DNA of 11,113 nt from Oscillospiraceae bacterium. GTDB lineage: Bacteria; Bacillota; Clostridia; Saccharofermentanales; Saccharofermentanaceae. The DNA lies in the NCBI GenBank assembly GCA_902782985.1, contig CACZPC010000152.1:1-11113 (forward strand). The letters run 5' to 3'. Below the pieces are notes generated by a model. It was not told the DNA's origin, searched no databases, and saw only the letters and a program-made list of their open reading frames with translations. The position numbers were made by a program, and so were the translations under genes. Shown in pieces: positions 3,458 through 11,047 of the stretch (position 1 is the first letter of the stretch; each line of letters starts with the position of its first letter).

Positions 3458-3495
3458 AAAATGCCCTTCCATCTTGTTAGAGACGAAAGGGCATT
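3458..3495 (-). terminator. T-box regulated terminator hairpin upstream of leuA
   Basis: On the minus strand AATGCCCTT (3487-3495) pairs perfectly with AAGGGCATT (3460-3468) around an 18-base loop, and a short T run follows. The upstream arm directly abuts the T-box sequence, the standard arrangement in which tRNA-stabilised antiterminator pairing competes with this hairpin. Uncharged leucyl-tRNA would prevent its formation and allow leuA-glf transcription. Confidence 0.93.
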
Positions 3496-3734
3496 CGCGG
3501 TACCACTCTAATTCATCCGATGTCGGATGCACTCTCCGGATACAGGTCTCCTTAGACCGATATCCTGTCCCTGTAACGGTGGACTTCCGTCCGAATCTAC
3601 TTGCATAACTGCTTTCAAAAGGATGCTCCGAGGCGAGTTCCCTATTGTTCTGCTTGCTGCCTTCCACCATCCGCAGCTCTCTGCTAAGCAGGATCGATAA
3701 GTACTATTCCTCATCAACGCAATAATATTCAATT
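3458..3734 (-). promoter_or_regulatory. T-box riboswitch leader, leucine-specific (CUC specifier)
   Basis: All the landmarks of a T-box leader can be read. Stem I is closed by GATG (3712-3715) with CATC (3622-3625). The specifier loop has AGTA (3702-3705) on its 5' side and GAA (3638-3640) on its 3' side, followed at once by CTC (3635-3637), a leucine codon. Above it, CTGCTT (3686-3691) pairs with AAGCAG (3650-3655). An AG-rich bulge and then GCTGC/GCAGC (3673-3677, 3656-3660) cap the arm with the conserved GGATGGTGGAAG loop. The T-box AGAGTGGTACCGCG lies at 3496-3509, and its TGGT can pair with the ACCA end of a tRNA with an A discriminator, as tRNA-Leu has. A terminator follows. Specifier, discriminator and downstream leuA all agree on leucine. 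The 5' end is estimated from the promoter. Confidence 0.95.
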
Positions 3735-3740
3735 AGCTTG

Positions 3741-3769
3741 ATGTTACCAAAAAGTTCAGTCTTGGTCAA
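3741..3769 (-). promoter_or_regulatory. Sigma-A type promoter of the T-box leuA-glf transcript
   Basis: On the minus strand, TTGACC (3764-3769) and TAACAT (3741-3746) are separated by exactly 17 bases, close to the TTGACA/TATAAT consensus. The predicted start near 3734 places T-box Stem I about 20 bases downstream, as expected. The -35 box lies within the final codons of the upstream lipoprotein gene (codons for Gln-Val-Asp-Gln). Confidence 0.7.
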
Positions 3770-4685
3770 CTTGAGCAGGGTCTTCCTTATAAACTGTAAC
3801 AACGGCAGTATCATAATAAAGGAGTTCATCATCTTCATTAAAAAAAGCAATTAGATATTCTCCCGGGACCATATAACCGTGATTATTCATTCGAGCTTCC
3901 TGCTCAATACCATAGATACCTTCTGTACAGCCGGGATCGCTGGTATATAATGTTTCCCCGTTCTTTGAGACAACATAATATACTCCGGATGTATCCACCT
4001 GACCTTCTGAAGTATCTATCTGAAGATCCAGATCGATCTCAGTCGTATTCTCATAAAGATCATTCGTATGGGGTTCACAGAAACACCAGTATCCTCCCGT
4101 CACGGCACCATCAATACTTCTCGGAATCGATACATCAACGTCAAGAAAAGCATATACCGGTGAATATACATCACCGAGATTGGATAATTTCCACTCACCT
4201 TCCTCGTATACGAATGAATATGTAACTCTGAATTCCTTTCGTTCATCCTGAAGCCTGAGTGTACGCATCATTACGGCATAATCCTGTCTGTTATCCGGAT
4301 CATTAAGTACGGATTCGTAATCGATCATGCTGAAATATACATCGACACTTCCGGATCCTTCATACTCAGATGCATCGACCGAACCGCGATCTATGCGATA
4401 AGTAATGGAATCATGTATATAATTAACAACTCTGAGCTTATCTTCCCCAAATGATTCCTGATAATCAAGTTTTGACAGATACGAATGAGTCGATACTTTA
4501 TCATGTTTTTCATCCGACATATCGATAAGAGTATCCGCATCGCCATCAAGAAGTGACTTAGAAAGCTTATCGGCACTTCGAAGGATCTCGTCACAAGACT
4601 TCTTGTCATAACAACCGCACAAAGATGCACTTAATACAATCAACACAAGAAATATGCAGAAACTCTTGAACGAATTCGATCTCAT
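3756..4685 (-). CDS. Putative lipoprotein, 309 residues, function unknown
   Basis: The N-terminus is a clear lipoprotein signal: MRSNSFKS, a hydrophobic stretch (FCIFLVLIVLSASL) and the lipobox LCGC with Cys25 as the acylated residue. The mature protein should be anchored to the outer face of the cytoplasmic membrane. Residues of about 28-165 start with a helix pair (EILRSADKLSKSLLDGDADTLIDMS) and continue into alternating beta strands ending in 'YEEGEWKLSNLGDVY', which looks like the NTF2/DUF4878-like fold common in Clostridia lipoproteins. The rest (about 170-309) is beta-rich and may be a second, Ig-like domain. The start at 4685 has GGAG six bases upstream. No terminator separates its stop from the leuA T-box promoter, which overlaps its end. 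I cannot assign a role or ligand. Confidence 0.88.
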   Translation of the reverse strand: MRSNSFKSFCIFLVLIVLSASLCGCYDKKSCDEILRSADKLSKSLLDGDADTLIDMSDEKHDKVSTHSYLSKLDYQESFGEDKLRVVNYIHDSITYRIDRGSVDASEYEGSGSVDVYFSMIDYESVLNDPDNRQDYAVMMRTLRLQDERKEFRVTYSFVYEEGEWKLSNLGDVYSPVYAFLDVDVSIPRSIDGAVTGGYWCFCEPHTNDLYENTTEIDLDLQIDTSEGQVDTSGVYYVVSKNGETLYTSDPGCTEGIYGIEQEARMNNHGYMVPGEYLIAFFNEDDELLYYDTAVVTVYKEDPAQVDQD

Positions 4686-4804: not shown

Positions 4805-7800
4805 CTAATGCCGATCCGGAGGCGGACCGCCTGTTCGTCCCATCATAGCAAAAAGTTCCTTCATGGAAAGCCTTTCGCCGTTATGAACAAAGCATGCATC
4901 ACAATTATTGATATCAAGATCCTTTCCTGCTGTACCGATGAACGAATCCGAATCATTCTCTACACTGCATACGACTCTGGCATTTTGAGCAGAAAGACTG
5001 CCTTTCTGACTTCGGGTACCATATGCACAACTGTCACCTGAAACATTTACCGTAACAGATGCATTGTCGATCCGAAGCTTAGCATCTCCGTTGTCCTCGA
5101 GGACTCCTATACCGACTGACTCTCTGCAGTTGACAGTGCATTCGATATTCGACTTCGTTATAAAGACATCACTGGAGCTTCCAAGATCTGTACCGATAGC
5201 TACGCCTCTGTTACCCTGAAGCTGCTGCTTCATCGTAATATGATTGATATCGACCTTGGCTTGTCCTGAACCTGATCCTACACCTACACAGTTGGACGTA
5301 TTCGAATCGATAATGACCTTAACATCCGTAAGATCTATCTGAGCATGTCCGCGATATGAGCCTATACCTACGTTATTCTGGCCATTGAGCTTGAAGAAAT
5401 ACTTACCGTCTGAAGTATTGATAATACAGTCTTCCCAGCAGCCTATGCCGACACCCATCATTCCTGTACCGCTAATATGGATCTCACCAGCCATATCCAG
5501 GAATATACCGCCGCACTTGCTCTCATAACCCGCACCAATACCATAGTAATACTTCTTCTCGGCATAGATATAGAGTCTTCCGTCGCCTTCAAATACAACT
5601 CTGGAATCTTCGGAGACATAGATACTTCCGTAACAGGTGCATTCACCTTTGACGGATAAGGTAACATCGCATCCCTCCTCGATCACTATTACGGCATCAT
5701 AACCTATAACCTGACCGAATTCGGCATTTTCAAGAGTTATCTTACCCGAATAGCCGCTGTGAATATGAAGGCCTATCTTTGAATTGAGACTTGGAACACC
5801 GATTATCTCAAAATCATGGAAAGTTGACTCACTGTCATATATATCGATGATATTTATGCTGTTTTGATAAAGCTGTGCAAGCTGTATCCTCGATTCCCTG
5901 CCGGCTACATACACGTTTGCATCTGCGCCTTCTTCCAGTTCTTCATTTATCATTAAGATCTCTTTCTTGATCTCCGGATCGATATCAACGGCGATAATGC
6001 CGTTAGGTCTTGCGGTATAAAAGCCCTGTATAAGATCCGCACCCAGCTCGATCACGGTCCGAAGTTCGGCAGAAGTCTCAACACCTTCTGCAAGAGAGAT
6101 GATATTATTGCTGTGAGCATAGTCAATAACGGACTTTACGAAGAACCTTTTGCTCTCGCTGTTTTCGATCCCGCTCAGCAGCATCCTGTCAATCTTCAGG
6201 TAATTGGGTTTATATCTGAGAAGATTGGCAACATTGGAATAACCTGTGCCATAATCATCCAGAGCAGTCTCCAGATTCAAAGCGGTATATTCCGCCCTGA
6301 GTATACTTATCTCTTCATCAGTGAGTTCAGCCTGCTCAGTAAACTCAATAACGACAGTATCACTGTATCCGTCTACGGCATCGATAAAATCCTGAAGATC
6401 CTTACCGTGGAATTTCTGTCCGGGTATACTGTTGATAAAAAGTTTTCTTGAACCGTCAAATATATCCTTACGATCTCTCATTATCCTAAGAACGTTTTTG
6501 AAAGTAAGCCTTTCGACATCATAAAGCCTGTCAGTATATTCCGCATACTTAAGGATCTTAAGCGGAGATAGATAAGGCGTTATGTCAGCTCGCATCAAAG
6601 CCTCATATGAGAATATCTCCCCGGTCTTGGCATTTACGATAGGCTGGAAATGATATGCAAGAAGGTTATTGTCCAGGATCTCTCCTACGATCTGAGCTTC
6701 AGCCTTTTCCTCCGGAGACAGCTTGGAGAGCGAGCTGTCAGATTTCATCGCCTTTTTCTCGTTTTTCTTGTTGATGACATCATTTACGGCCAGCTCGAGT
6801 TCGGCAGGCGAATTAGGAGTACAGCTGCCGATAGCACTGTAAAGTGCCATCCTTCCGTCCTCACTAACATTTTCATTATAGACATATATCTGATTGATGA
6901 TCTTATCGTATTGAGACTTGATCACATTCTCGGCATTTTCATTAGTAAGCTTAAGAGCCACTATCTCTCCGTTACCCATGCAGAAACAGAATGCACCCGG
7001 GCCGTTAAAGACTTTCTTGACCATATTGGCAAGGGCATTGATCGTATTATCGCCGGATACATGACCGAGCTTGTTATTGATCCCCGACAGATCCTTGATA
7101 TCCACCGTAAGGATACCGATATTCTTACCGAAATTACTGGTCTTGGCAACGATCGATAAAGCCTCGTTTATGAAACCGCTGTAATTGTACATCCCCGTTA
7201 CCGGATCGCGCTTCAGCCTTTCATCTATGATGCTGTTCTTATGTACAAACGAGTCTCTTCTCCTGTACTGCTCAAGACCGAGGATTATATTTCTGATCCA
7301 GGTCCTCTCTTCCTGTCCGGGGACCTTATCGGGATCCGTATAACAAAGAGATACGAATCCGAAGCAAAGCTCCTCGAAATGCATCGGGAAGAAATAATAG
7401 ACTCTGGGCTGATAATAGAAATCGTTTATCTCGGGAAGCATCTCCTTTCGATCATAATACCGCAGGAAATTAAGACTGTCGGAATTACTTCCTTCACTTC
7501 CGCACTGAATGAGATGAAGCATCTTCGGTGTAAATGTCGATCGTTCGATGGTCCAGTCATCATTCAGACAGATATTGAGACTTTGGAAAGGCCGTATCTG
7601 ATAAGTATTCGAAAAGATGGTATTGACCAGACCGTTAAAAGATATCTGCAGGAGCATATCCTCATTCATATGATTATATGCATTATTGACTCTTCCCTGA
7701 CTCATCTCGGTATCCCAGCTCGAACGAAGAGTATACTCAGGCTTGATACTCTCGTTATGGCATCCGCAGGAACTTCCGATAAATAGATCAACATCAGCGA

Positions 7801-8620
7801 CGAAATCAGGCATCTCGGTACCCTCAAGTTCAGATCTCACAAGATCTGCACAATACATGCCGAATTCCCTGCTCGGCAAAGGAGCAGACGTCAGAGGCAC
7901 AGGTGCATGCTGACCTTCATCATTCGTATCATAACCGACGATAGCGATATCATCAGGGATCTTATAACCCTTGGAAGTAAAATATTTGGCAGCACCTATG
8001 GCCATACAATCATTGGCACATGCCAGTGCCTGAGGAAGACCTCTTGTGGACTTGCAAAGTCTCTCGGCTACATTCTCACCGCTGAAATACCAGAAGTCAC
8101 CGTAGAATATCCTGTCCGAATTAACCTGTAGTCCGTGCTCCTCCATCGCTTCCTTGTAAGCATTAAGCCTTAAAACGGAATGTGGATGCCATGATTTGCC
8201 AGTAAGAAATGCTATATCGGTATATCCGTGTTCTTCTATAAGATGCGAGATAAGTTTCTTGACCGGTGAGATATTGTCCTCATAAGCGGATCTGAAACCG
8301 TCGATCTTCTTGTCACATACGATCACGGGACCATCAAATGACTCCCGAAGTCTTGAGACTATCCTGTCTTCGGCACCCGGAGTCTGTATCGTATCTATCA
8401 ATAAAACAAATGCGTCAAAAGACGAATACTCTATAAGATCGAAGATAGAAGAATCACCTGCTTCACGCGCCGGAGAATTCTGATACTTCTGAAACATGGA
8501 AAAGACACAGACATCATAGCCATACTTAAAAGCATGATCAAGAAAACCTTTGGTAAATAACGTCTGACCGCTCTCTTCAACCTGAGCGACCAATAAAGCG
8601 ATCTTCTTTCTGTTGTCCAT
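4805..8620 (-). CDS. LacI-like sensor, degenerate GGDEF, active-type EAL phosphodiesterase with C-terminal beta-helix repeats
   Basis: A 1271-residue protein, predicted to be cytoplasmic since no signal peptide or membrane segment is seen. Residues 1-285 are a LacI/periplasmic-binding-type ligand domain (RLNAYKEAMEEHGL at 151-164, ACANDCMAIGA at 200-210, IPDDIAIVGYDTND at 221-234, then SCGC at 284-287). The helix-turn-helix is absent, and a stop lies in frame just upstream. About 300-460 is a helical, GAF-like linker. About 465-615 is a GGDEF domain whose signature reads GNGEI (549-553), so cyclase activity is unlikely. About 640-890 is an EAL domain with E673, N730, E759, D788, D789, K809, E845 and Q865 all present, so c-di-GMP hydrolysis is expected. 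About 900-1271 is a Gly-rich repeat domain. The start is ATG 8620 with a weak GGTGAGG site. The GH2 gene lies 61 bases upstream. The ligand is unknown. Confidence 0.93.
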   Translation of the reverse strand: MDNRKKIALLVAQVEESGQTLFTKGFLDHAFKYGYDVCVFSMFQKYQNSPAREAGDSSIFDLIEYSSFDAFVLLIDTIQTPGAEDRIVSRLRESFDGPVIVCDKKIDGFRSAYEDNISPVKKLISHLIEEHGYTDIAFLTGKSWHPHSVLRLNAYKEAMEEHGLQVNSDRIFYGDFWYFSGENVAERLCKSTRGLPQALACANDCMAIGAAKYFTSKGYKIPDDIAIVGYDTNDEGQHAPVPLTSAPLPSREFGMYCADLVRSELEGTEMPDFVADVDLFIGSSCGCHNESIKPEYTLRSSWDTEMSQGRVNNAYNHMNEDMLLQISFNGLVNTIFSNTYQIRPFQSLNICLNDDWTIERSTFTPKMLHLIQCGSEGSNSDSLNFLRYYDRKEMLPEINDFYYQPRVYYFFPMHFEELCFGFVSLCYTDPDKVPGQEERTWIRNIILGLEQYRRRDSFVHKNSIIDERLKRDPVTGMYNYSGFINEALSIVAKTSNFGKNIGILTVDIKDLSGINNKLGHVSGDNTINALANMVKKVFNGPGAFCFCMGNGEIVALKLTNENAENVIKSQYDKIINQIYVYNENVSEDGRMALYSAIGSCTPNSPAELELAVNDVINKKNEKKAMKSDSSLSKLSPEEKAEAQIVGEILDNNLLAYHFQPIVNAKTGEIFSYEALMRADITPYLSPLKILKYAEYTDRLYDVERLTFKNVLRIMRDRKDIFDGSRKLFINSIPGQKFHGKDLQDFIDAVDGYSDTVVIEFTEQAELTDEEISILRAEYTALNLETALDDYGTGYSNVANLLRYKPNYLKIDRMLLSGIENSESKRFFVKSVIDYAHSNNIISLAEGVETSAELRTVIELGADLIQGFYTARPNGIIAVDIDPEIKKEILMINEELEEGADANVYVAGRESRIQLAQLYQNSINIIDIYDSESTFHDFEIIGVPSLNSKIGLHIHSGYSGKITLENAEFGQVIGYDAVIVIEEGCDVTLSVKGECTCYGSIYVSEDSRVVFEGDGRLYIYAEKKYYYGIGAGYESKCGGIFLDMAGEIHISGTGMMGVGIGCWEDCIINTSDGKYFFKLNGQNNVGIGSYRGHAQIDLTDVKVIIDSNTSNCVGVGSGSGQAKVDINHITMKQQLQGNRGVAIGTDLGSSSDVFITKSNIECTVNCRESVGIGVLEDNGDAKLRIDNASVTVNVSGDSCAYGTRSQKGSLSAQNARVVCSVENDSDSFIGTAGKDLDINNCDACFVHNGERLSMKELFAMMGRTGGPPPDRH
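4931..5563 (-). repeat. Coding region of about eight 28-residue Gly-Ile-Gly repeats
   Basis: Within the EAL protein, a V/Y-G-I-G type turn recurs with its final Gly at residues 1029, 1060, 1087, 1115, 1143, 1172, 1201 and 1229, a spacing of 27-31 and mostly 28-29. Between turns, alternating hydrophobic strands occur (for example QIDLTDVKVIIDS, KVDINHITM, KLRIDNASVTVNV). This is the pattern of a parallel beta-helix with one turn per repeat, similar in style to Gly-rich repeats of clostridial surface proteins. The repeats are diverged at the DNA level. The last two copies are weaker (YGT, FIG). The fold is inferred. Confidence 0.75.
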
Positions 8621-8681: not shown

Positions 8682-11039
8682 TTAAATTATTTTGAATTCG
8701 ATCTCCCGTTCTTCTGCTTTATACGGATAAGGCATCTCAATCCTGATCTTTCCGACACCTTTTTTGCCGATACTCCTGACATAGATACCGCCCATACCGC
8801 CTGATATAAAAGCGTTTTCAGGGCCGATGACTTCGATATCGCCCTCAGATACGATCTTAAGATCGCCGTTGAAGAAAGGTTGAATATTACCGTTTTCGTC
8901 CGTGATCCTTATCCTTATCTCCGCAACATCATATGTCCTGTCATCATGTAAAATATCAGAAGAGATATCCGTTCTTATACATATCCTCTCAAATGCCTTC
9001 TTTACGACAGTCGCGGCAACTTTACCGTCCTTTATCGCTTCGAACCTGAAGACTGTAGCCGTCTCGCCCCATCCGCCTATATATTTGCCGAAGAGCATAT
9101 ACGCATCCTCAAACTTCATATGATAGACAGCCATAGCCTCTGCAAGCTTTAGCATTATCTTTGGCGGCATATTATCCATTCCGTATTTACCGATATAGTT
9201 CAATGCATCCTTGACGATCCTGTTCTGCCTGTCCGTGAAGCCCTGCTCTTCCTTCATCTTATCTCCGATGAAGTCATCTATGAGAATGGGAGGATTCTTC
9301 ATATTCTTATATGCCGAATCACGATGAGTATATTCCTTGATGAAATAATCGTTTTTATACATTCGCACGCTGTCGGCATTGGTAATGATATAGATATCCC
9401 CTCTGTTGCCGGCAGGATGTTCACCGATATCCATTGAAGACGATACTTCGACAAATACTTCATTATTACCGGATGCTGCCTTATAAACATATCCGGCCGG
9501 TTTGAGATTACGAAACATGTCCGTTACGCCATGATAGCAAATACGATCGCCTGAACCGAAATCCTTGTGAGTATTATAGTCAAACATGCACCAGCCGAAG
9601 CTTCCTGCAATATCCCTCTCGCCTGCTACGGCGTCAAGAACGTTAGCGTGACGAAGAAGATGTTCGGTCCTGTGCTCCTCCGGGTCGAAAGGCTTAGTCG
9701 GGAACATATGACCGTTATATTCGCTTATAAGGTAAGCCCTGTCGGGGTCACTCGTTACATTTTTCTTCGGTTCACAGCCTTTATTACGTCCGCTGTGGAC
9801 AAAATCATTATATGTATAGACATCTTCAAGAAAACTGCTCTTCTTAAGATACCTCACACCACCTGTGGGTCTTGAAGGATCAAGCTTTTTGGCCACGCTG
9901 TTGGTAGTGGTATAAAGTGCGTCATCATCTGCGGATTCATTGATCCTTACTCCCCATAATATGATCGAAGGATGATTTCTGTACTGAGTAACCATCTCTC
10001 TTACATTCTGTATTGCCTGCTCTTTCCACTCATCGTCACCGATATGCTGCCAGCCCGGTATCTCAGTAAATACAAGAAGACCGATCTCGTCACATCTGTC
10101 GATGAAATAATGCGACTGAGGATAATGAGATGTCCTGACGGCGTTTACTCCAAGCTCATTCTTTAAGATATCCGCATCCAATGCCTGCATGGATCGGGGC
10201 ATGGCATAACCTACATACGGAAATGACTGATGACGGTTAAGCCCCATTATCCTGACTTTCCTGCCGTTAAGATAATATCCGTCTGTTTTAAATTCCGAAG
10301 TCCTGAATCCTGTTCTTACGATCTTGCTGTCGATTACAGCGTGAGTATCCTTATCGGTCAATCTGACTTCAAAGTCATAAAGAACGGGCGAATCAATGTC
10401 CCAGGGCTTTATACCTTCACAGGAGATCTTTCCTGATGTTTTCAGCTCACCGTCAAATAAGATATCGTCCCTGTCACTACCGCGAAGATATCCGGTGATC
10501 TTCGTGCCGTCCTCCTGCCCCCGCAGGGTGATATCATAAGTAAGAACACCGTTCATATCTCCGGTTACAAATACATCATCGATATAAGTCTTCTCTTTGA
10601 CATCGATATAAACATCCCTGTATATACCGCCGTAAGTCATATAGTCGATAACAAATCCGAAAGGCGGTATATTAAGTGATTCATTGCTGTCCACTTTAAC
10701 ATCGATCACATTTTCTTCCCCGCTCCTCAGATAGCTGCTTATATCAAGAGTAAAGGCCGTATATCCTGATTTGTGCACGCCTGCAAGCTTACCGTTGATC
10801 CTTACCTCACAATAATGAGCAACCCCTTCAAAAGTAAGAAGAATGATCTTATCTTTCCACTCTTCGGGAATAAACAGTTTCCTCATATATCCCGATATCA
10901 TCTGATAGATACTCTCGTCAAAATAATGGAAAGGCGTTACTGCCACAGTATGAGGTATCCTTATCTCATCACCGACCGGAAGCTTATCGTAATCCGTATT
11001 AAAGATCCAGTCGTTATCGATATACAGTCTGTCGATCAT
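8682..11039 (-). CDS. Glycoside hydrolase family 2 enzyme (beta-galactosidase/beta-glucuronidase type)
   Basis: A retaining exo-beta-glycosidase of family GH2, predicted intracellular because no signal peptide is present. Numbering from the ATG at 11039 (785 residues), residues of about 1-145 are the jelly-roll sugar-binding domain (FEGVAHYCEVRINGKLAG, YGGIYRDVYI). About 150-245 is an Ig-like domain ending GFRTSEF. About 250-525 is the TIM barrel with GLNRHQSFPYVG, the acid/base Glu368 in WGVRINE and the nucleophile Glu440 in LISEYNGH. Further Ig-like C-terminal domains follow, the first apparently interrupted by a helical insert of about 80 residues. A GTG two codons upstream (11045) would be only 2 bases from the AGGAGG site, whereas the ATG at 11039 is 8 bases away, so ATG is preferred. 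Substrate within the family cannot be fixed from sequence. The next gene encodes a sugar-sensor phosphodiesterase. Confidence 0.94.
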   Translation of the reverse strand: MIDRLYIDNDWIFNTDYDKLPVGDEIRIPHTVAVTPFHYFDESIYQMISGYMRKLFIPEEWKDKIILLTFEGVAHYCEVRINGKLAGVHKSGYTAFTLDISSYLRSGEENVIDVKVDSNESLNIPPFGFVIDYMTYGGIYRDVYIDVKEKTYIDDVFVTGDMNGVLTYDITLRGQEDGTKITGYLRGSDRDDILFDGELKTSGKISCEGIKPWDIDSPVLYDFEVRLTDKDTHAVIDSKIVRTGFRTSEFKTDGYYLNGRKVRIMGLNRHQSFPYVGYAMPRSMQALDADILKNELGVNAVRTSHYPQSHYFIDRCDEIGLLVFTEIPGWQHIGDDEWKEQAIQNVREMVTQYRNHPSIILWGVRINESADDDALYTTTNSVAKKLDPSRPTGGVRYLKKSSFLEDVYTYNDFVHSGRNKGCEPKKNVTSDPDRAYLISEYNGHMFPTKPFDPEEHRTEHLLRHANVLDAVAGERDIAGSFGWCMFDYNTHKDFGSGDRICYHGVTDMFRNLKPAGYVYKAASGNNEVFVEVSSSMDIGEHPAGNRGDIYIITNADSVRMYKNDYFIKEYTHRDSAYKNMKNPPILIDDFIGDKMKEEQGFTDRQNRIVKDALNYIGKYGMDNMPPKIMLKLAEAMAVYHMKFEDAYMLFGKYIGGWGETATVFRFEAIKDGKVAATVVKKAFERICIRTDISSDILHDDRTYDVAEIRIRITDENGNIQPFFNGDLKIVSEGDIEVIGPENAFISGGMGGIYVRSIGKKGVGKIRIEMPYPYKAEEREIEFKII

Positions 11040-11047
11040 TTGCACGG

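Follow-up and report, generated by a model that had tools for sequence, protein, structure and literature searches.

A predicted beta-helix domain carried by EAL phosphodiesterases of Clostridia

What would a repeat domain of the kind known from secreted and surface proteins be doing at the end of an intracellular signalling enzyme? The question is raised by one gene in an 11,113-nucleotide stretch of DNA (the window; contig CACZPC010000152.1 of assembly GCA_902782985.1) from an Oscillospiraceae bacterium that GTDB places in the clostridial family Saccharofermentanaceae. The gene occupies 4805..8620 on the minus strand and is an ATG-initiated open reading frame (ORF) of 1271 amino acids (aa), with a LacI-type domain, a linker, a degenerate GGDEF domain, an EAL phosphodiesterase domain and a beta-helix. 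We consider it fairly probable that the product is a cytoplasmic LacI-sensor phosphodiesterase acting on cyclic diguanosine monophosphate (c-di-GMP), in which the beta-helix serves as a non-catalytic docking or second-input module; it would belong to an established enzyme class and carry a conserved accessory domain that has no name. An earlier note, written from the letters alone, had given the same coordinates and domain order, with a degenerate GGDEF, an intact EAL and a terminal repeat domain. Pfam, alignment and a fold model agree with it, and the 24 stops found on the plus strand across 4805-8620 in the same register identify the minus strand as the coding one.

Domain layout, catalytic motifs and the predicted fold

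The LacI-type (Peripla_BP) ligand-binding domain spans residues 1-290 (7751..8620; this and all other parts of the gene are on the minus strand) and is assigned to PF13377/PF00532, with Peripla_BP_3 at residues 126-271 (E 1.6e-24; 87.3 bits for PF13377 versus a cut-off of 26.5) and Peripla_BP_1 at residues 5-263 (6e-13). Its closest sequences in the PDB are LacI-family regulators (5ysz, AscG, the ribose repressor and CcpA). Pfam reported no profile for the helix-turn-helix of LacI/GalR transcription regulators, the ligand-domain match already starting at residue 5. By eye, the 1271-aa protein shows neither a signal peptide nor a membrane segment. The linker that follows (residues 291-465, 7226..7750) has no family assignment and a mean pairwise identity of 0.39 among 51 proteins. 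In the GGDEF domain (residues 471-580, 6881..7210; a partial Pfam match, 2e-8) GNGEI stands where GG(D/E)EF is expected, so that the diguanylate cyclase motif is lacking, and the LacI-GGDEF relatives shown likewise carry GNGE(I/F/M) at this position. Because this sequence replaces GGDEF, activity of the domain as a cyclase is unlikely; according to part of one source (PMC12900916), activity can survive mild changes such as GNDEF and GGDQF, so GNGE is no proof of inactivity.

The EAL domain (residues 649-872, 6005..6676) was recognised by Pfam at E 7.5e-48 (163.4 bits for PF00563 versus a curated cut-off of 31.3), and its motif residues are intact. We scored the metal-binding and catalytic positions, namely the Glu of the EAL motif, Asn, ExxE, DD, Lys, the Glu of EGVE, and Gln; the roles of the Asn, ExxE, DD, Lys and Gln are general background. 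The displayed motifs were retained in 32/32 aligned proteins, with ExxE and the remaining EAL residues among the invariant columns of a 29-row alignment. Functional roles of the Glu residues of the EAL motif and of EGVE are given in a passage of PMC12900916. The region matches sequences of solved phosphodiesterases in the PDB, and has the same EAL domain with intact motif residues as BlrP1, MucR, YahA and the V. cholerae protein 6ifq; among the 31 solved EAL sequences listed, compared by name alone, no name points to a beta-helix. LacI-like Periplas_BP is described in part of PMC8846402 as a putative c-di-GMP sensory domain, possibly sugar-binding, without a validated role. Compared with c-di-GMP enzymes that have such LacI-like Peripla_BP sensors, the window protein adds the beta-helix and the degenerate GGDEF. 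Judged by its domains, the enzyme probably degrades c-di-GMP intracellularly in response to a sugar-like ligand.

The last ~370 residues (905-1271, 4808..5908, with a Gly/Pro-rich tail at the extreme end) are predicted with high confidence to form a right-handed parallel beta-helix, a call based on the predicted model and a VIA-align structural comparison. Searches with residues 890-1271 assigned them to no sequence family: against Pfam at E 10 there was no match except LEA_2 at 0.15, under its cut-off, and none was obtained from NCBIfam or from PDB sequences, both at E 1. PF14262, which we take to be the Cthe_2159-type carbohydrate-binding beta-helix, was not matched in Pfam at E 10 by this domain or by those of seven relatives. 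Foldseek with the domain alone found no PDB entry that reached E 0.001, the best having 0.15, and with the model of EAL plus helix only EAL proteins were among the 50 matches listed.

The Gly-Ile-Gly repeat described in the earlier note is real. GIG-type motifs stand at residues 1027, 1056/1058, 1085, 1113, 1141 and 1170, and a count of [GA][IVLF]G, a motif picked after the sequence had been inspected, gave seven occurrences in 890-1271 with seven pairs at a spacing of 26-32 residues. The pair count was reached in 0/10,000 shuffles of this region and the motif count in 55/10,000. No break was found at residues 890-900, where the earlier note had suggested looking for a frameshift or assembly join. 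Since relatives keep a continuous junction and the shuffles miss the repeat spacing, we ruled out frameshift, assembly join and chance as the origin of the domain. As a separate observation, the tail behind the beta-helix (window 4808-4850, minus strand) is rich in Gly-Pro-Pro; it also ends the L022 stretch 1501-2688 (L, G and f numbers denote our loci, genomes and families), and among the rows examined it is confined to closer relatives of the window protein.

Recurrence, descent and relatives of the domain

Recurrence in several genera, which according to the earlier note would support a real system, was found. The window's own genome holds a second copy on a 1122-aa LacI-EAL protein (38% identity over residues 629-1227) and an additional EAL fragment at a contig end, where the frame stops shortly after the EAL. 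Within the GTDB family the beta-helix occurs in 69/115 genomes, or 39/62 of the high-quality ones, in two of five genera. In a scan of named genomes, 50/50 beta-helix loci had an EAL motif ahead of the domain within one frame, five of these frames being cut by a contig end; the hosts were metagenome-assembled genomes (MAGs) of Saccharofermentans and Mageeibacillus and the Ruminococcaceae bacteria AB4001 and YRB3002, with further hosts in Ruminococcus flavefaciens ATCC 19208 (L084), Y1 and YL228 and in Lachnospiraceae and Eubacterium MAGs. Across the class (391 genomes) we observed 16 strong places (E below 1e-40) in 13 genomes of families f1, f28 and f61, all 16 with an EAL in the same frame; at E up to 1 the scan reached 36/391 genomes, the weaker matches being surface-type or chance. 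A tally of 230/391 came from a different class-wide model and consists mostly of plain EALs; it is unusable as a domain count because that model includes EAL columns. The first protein search returned an EAL in 31/31 proteins. A search that started from the domain of another subfamily, of the Ruminococcus type (911 aa), found 362 proteins, with an EAL in all 120 listed.

We also looked for the close form of the domain on its own or in non-signalling proteins and rejected such a use, each of the 16 strong places in the class-wide scan having an EAL in its frame. A profile scan for proteins of ~210-670 aa, with scoring limited to the 7986 candidates sharing most words, gave four matches (up to 691 aa), three with an EAL and one a fragment on a 939-bp contig. 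One 392-aa frame (G017:C122) is probably cut rather than standalone, because its match reaches base 30325 of a 30435-base contig. The domain model, run over the ORFs of the collected loci and proteins, gave 159 matches (overlapping loci counted repeatedly), of which five lacked an EAL (P0035, L144, L145, L149 and L152).

In a tree of 137 EAL domains, 107 of the 109 beta-helix rows belonged to a single 110-row branch with support 99/94. Three rows of this branch have no beta-helix, and the beta-helix rows G253 and G474 are placed elsewhere. As the tree is midpoint-rooted and its sample was chosen partly by presence of the beta-helix, it supports common descent and cannot count losses. The N-termini within the beta-helix group vary, from LacI plus GGDEF or LacI alone to short non-LacI and degenerate GGDEF types. 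Since the beta-helix is kept when LacI, GGDEF or both are absent, it belongs with the EAL and not with the LacI sensor, and the single EAL branch together with the varying N-termini indicates that the lasting unit is the EAL plus the beta-helix. The fusion appears to be old and inherited, and no recent oddity. Among 37 close pairs of relatives, the 35 with defined values had beta-helix ratios of nonsynonymous to synonymous substitution (dN/dS) of 0.053-0.130, a set in which many dS values exceed 1 and for which the window protein has no sufficiently close pair; these values indicate purifying selection on the beta-helix in close relatives. A different C-terminal tail of ~430 residues was seen on the EAL proteins of L125-L130 (f9 genomes); that of L125 has two HD-type domain matches and may make a double phosphodiesterase.

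The claim that such repeats normally sit on secreted or surface proteins stood in part. The distant relatives without an EAL appear, from their sequences, to be GIGGG-repeat, surface-type proteins. The clearest (L144) is part of a 2477-aa ORF of GIGGG repeats whose ends lie outside the sequence examined; the window domain matched these repeats with an hhalign probability of 94.9 (E 4.8e-8 over 151 columns, run without a negative control) and a search E of 1e-13. Two weaker matches, L146 and L147 (E 2e-5 and 3e-5), have tails that resemble sorting signals by eye. Profile homology over ~150 columns thus joins the window domain to GIG-repeat beta-helix regions of large surface-type proteins (L144), whereas here the beta-helix belongs to a cytoplasmic enzyme in which no secretion signal is visible, and its coils are more divergent. 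Among known right-handed beta-helices, the binding region of a Lactobacillus reuteri serine-rich-repeat protein (5ny0) differs in sequence (8% identity) and in belonging to a surface adhesin. No description of the EAL-beta-helix architecture was found among the open-licence PMC papers listed, subscription papers and preprints lying outside the search; the parts seen of PMC11264596 and PMC3584217 mention a beta-helix and an EAL domain separately.

Gene neighbourhoods

The phosphodiesterase gene lies upstream of leuA in 6/6 loci examined (the window, its closest relatives and L100), and glf lies downstream of it in 5/6, not being called in L162. Between the phosphodiesterase gene and leuA the window encodes a 309-aa lipoprotein-like protein (3756-4685, minus strand; LCGC motif by eye), which has no Pfam match at E 0.1 and no counterpart called in L161-L164. 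The leuA-type 2-isopropylmalate synthase gene is itself immediately preceded by a T-box leader (3476-3726, minus strand; Rfam RF00230, 128 bits). On the other side, 61 bp upstream of the phosphodiesterase gene and on the same strand, is a 787-aa glycoside hydrolase family 2 (GH2) gene (8682..11045, minus strand; Pfam). A GH2 gene is directly upstream in seven genomes (the window's, G065, G067, G024, G030, G040 and G041); adjacency is exact in the window, L161 and L100, and the gap was estimated from partial matches in G024, G030, G040 and G041.

In the main clade, an oppositely oriented gene that we labelled exonuclease-III-like by eye follows at 24/24 loci, and the directly preceding gene comes from one cluster at 23/24 (DUF4236 by Pfam in L053). 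At L051-L074 an asparaginase-like gene also comes after, with ketosynthase- and acyl-carrier-protein-like genes further on in most (names mostly by eye). At 6/11 Ruminococcus-labelled loci (L075, L078, L082, L084, L085 and L086) a LacI-GGDEF-type gene begins 15-49 bp downstream, in each case with an intact GGDEF motif (Pfam shown for L085), and this adjacency of a cyclase suggests opposed enzyme pairs. In the stretch 2532-8230 of L170 (G372), two flagellin-like genes (by eye) and a LacI-GGDEF gene whose motif is GGDEM stand beside a LacI-less EAL-beta-helix gene, a neighbourhood that hints at motility control in that genome. The window's own genome (G000) has 27 GGDEF matches and encodes five GGDEF proteins of LacI type whose GGDEF/GGDEY motif is intact; neither PilZ nor flagellin was matched in its assembly, which is ~73% complete.

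How the beta-helix may act

In the mechanism that we favour, a ligand, probably a small sugar, would bind the N-terminal LacI-type receptor, and the signal would be relayed via the linker and the non-cyclase GGDEF to the EAL active site, which would hydrolyse c-di-GMP. The beta-helix would be a rigid non-catalytic module at the EAL end whose task is docking, self-assembly or a second input; it could bring the phosphodiesterase to a partner or to itself, or modulate the EAL via the adjoining coils. The path from LacI sensor to EAL would follow known families by analogy; the part given to the beta-helix we infer from coupling, selection and conservation. Conservation within the domain is highest in the coils nearer the EAL, with values of 0.50-0.57 for residues 900-1100, 0.42 for 1101-1150 and 0.33-0.35 for 1151-1250.

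Several observations weigh against this mechanism. The relative placement of EAL and beta-helix is uncertain in the model (predicted template modelling score 0.59). The beta-helix evolves faster than the EAL, with a mean pairwise identity among 51 proteins of 0.38 versus 0.60, and the drop in conservation away from the EAL may be due in part to the distal coils being less well aligned. Acidic positions of the first coils, kept at 74-93% of 107 rows, seem to leave room for a metal, a ligand or even an active site. The three LacI-type EAL paralogues of ~905 aa that we examined (L114, L115/L167 and L168) have no beta-helix, so the domain is not needed for a LacI-EAL-type protein; several frames of 892-931 aa are more candidates of this kind, their fit judged by length alone. 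Adjacency to GH2 is seen in a minority only (7 of 69 domain-bearing genomes): a GH2 gene occurs in 54/115 family genomes, on the same contig but ~13-20 kb off in G010, G029 and G063, and in the main clade the phosphodiesterase gene sits at a different conserved locus without it.

The main rival holds that the beta-helix is a second ligand domain sensing an intracellular poly- or oligosaccharide, so that the enzyme would integrate a small sugar (through LacI) and a glycan. Many of the solved structures that the beta-helix resembles are polysaccharide-binding or polysaccharide-processing proteins (tailspikes, AlgE, AlgG, polygalacturonases and inulin enzymes), polar positions in the first coils are conserved (R911, D936, E964/N965, N994, S1006 and E1011), and many hosts are MAGs labelled with ruminant gut compartments. 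However, a common fold proves no function, the loci show no evident candidate for a cytoplasmic glycan and the distal coils are poorly conserved; we regard this reading as unlikely, though deserving a hearing. Less probable again is a reading in which the EAL is a receptor for c-di-GMP or a 'trigger' enzyme, with the beta-helix as an output that engages a target at low or high c-di-GMP. LapD and FimX are degenerate EAL receptors, in contrast to the protein discussed here, whose hydrolysis motif residues are intact, and no partner gene is conserved across the differing loci within the flanks seen. It would fit with a trigger role that the beta-helix adjoins the EAL and stays with it when the sensors differ, that PilZ was not found in the window's own incomplete genome and that trigger phosphodiesterases are a described class (part of PMC5052742). 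We give very little credence to the idea that the beta-helix is itself a carbohydrate-active enzyme of the cytoplasm, joined to the phosphodiesterase: the fold is common to many lyases, epimerases and hydrolases, but only Gly and Ile are invariant over 44 beta-helix sequences, with no invariant acidic residue, His, Lys or Arg, and the window's domain matches no enzyme family profile. A leftover fusion without function is the least credible of all, for although some relatives without the beta-helix remain intact open frames, the domain has persisted in several families on a single EAL branch, and its dN/dS in close relatives is low where a value near 1 would be expected.

We retain the non-catalytic docking or second-input module as the preferred account. 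The enzymes of c-di-GMP metabolism are usually understood through their N-terminal sensors, and a conserved C-terminal structural domain on a catalytic EAL would be a different site of control; its presence suggests an unstudied way of steering the c-di-GMP signal. The window's domain matches no Pfam or NCBIfam model, though the domain is carried by hundreds of proteins, and related proteins with and without it offer a natural comparison. As a bolder idea, which we hold only tentatively and think improbable as a whole, the EAL-beta-helix proteins may be a new c-di-GMP signalling class of gut and rumen Clostridia, derived from an ancient fusion in which a helix of the surface-adhesin type moved into the cytoplasm and became the steady partner of the EAL, as an ordered scaffold or a tie to an intracellular glycan or surface-assembly machine; interchangeable N-terminal sensors, opposed in some genomes by a neighbouring LacI-GGDEF cyclase, would then set local c-di-GMP by sugar supply. 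The family may also open a way to study how fibre degraders link sugars with attachment or motility.

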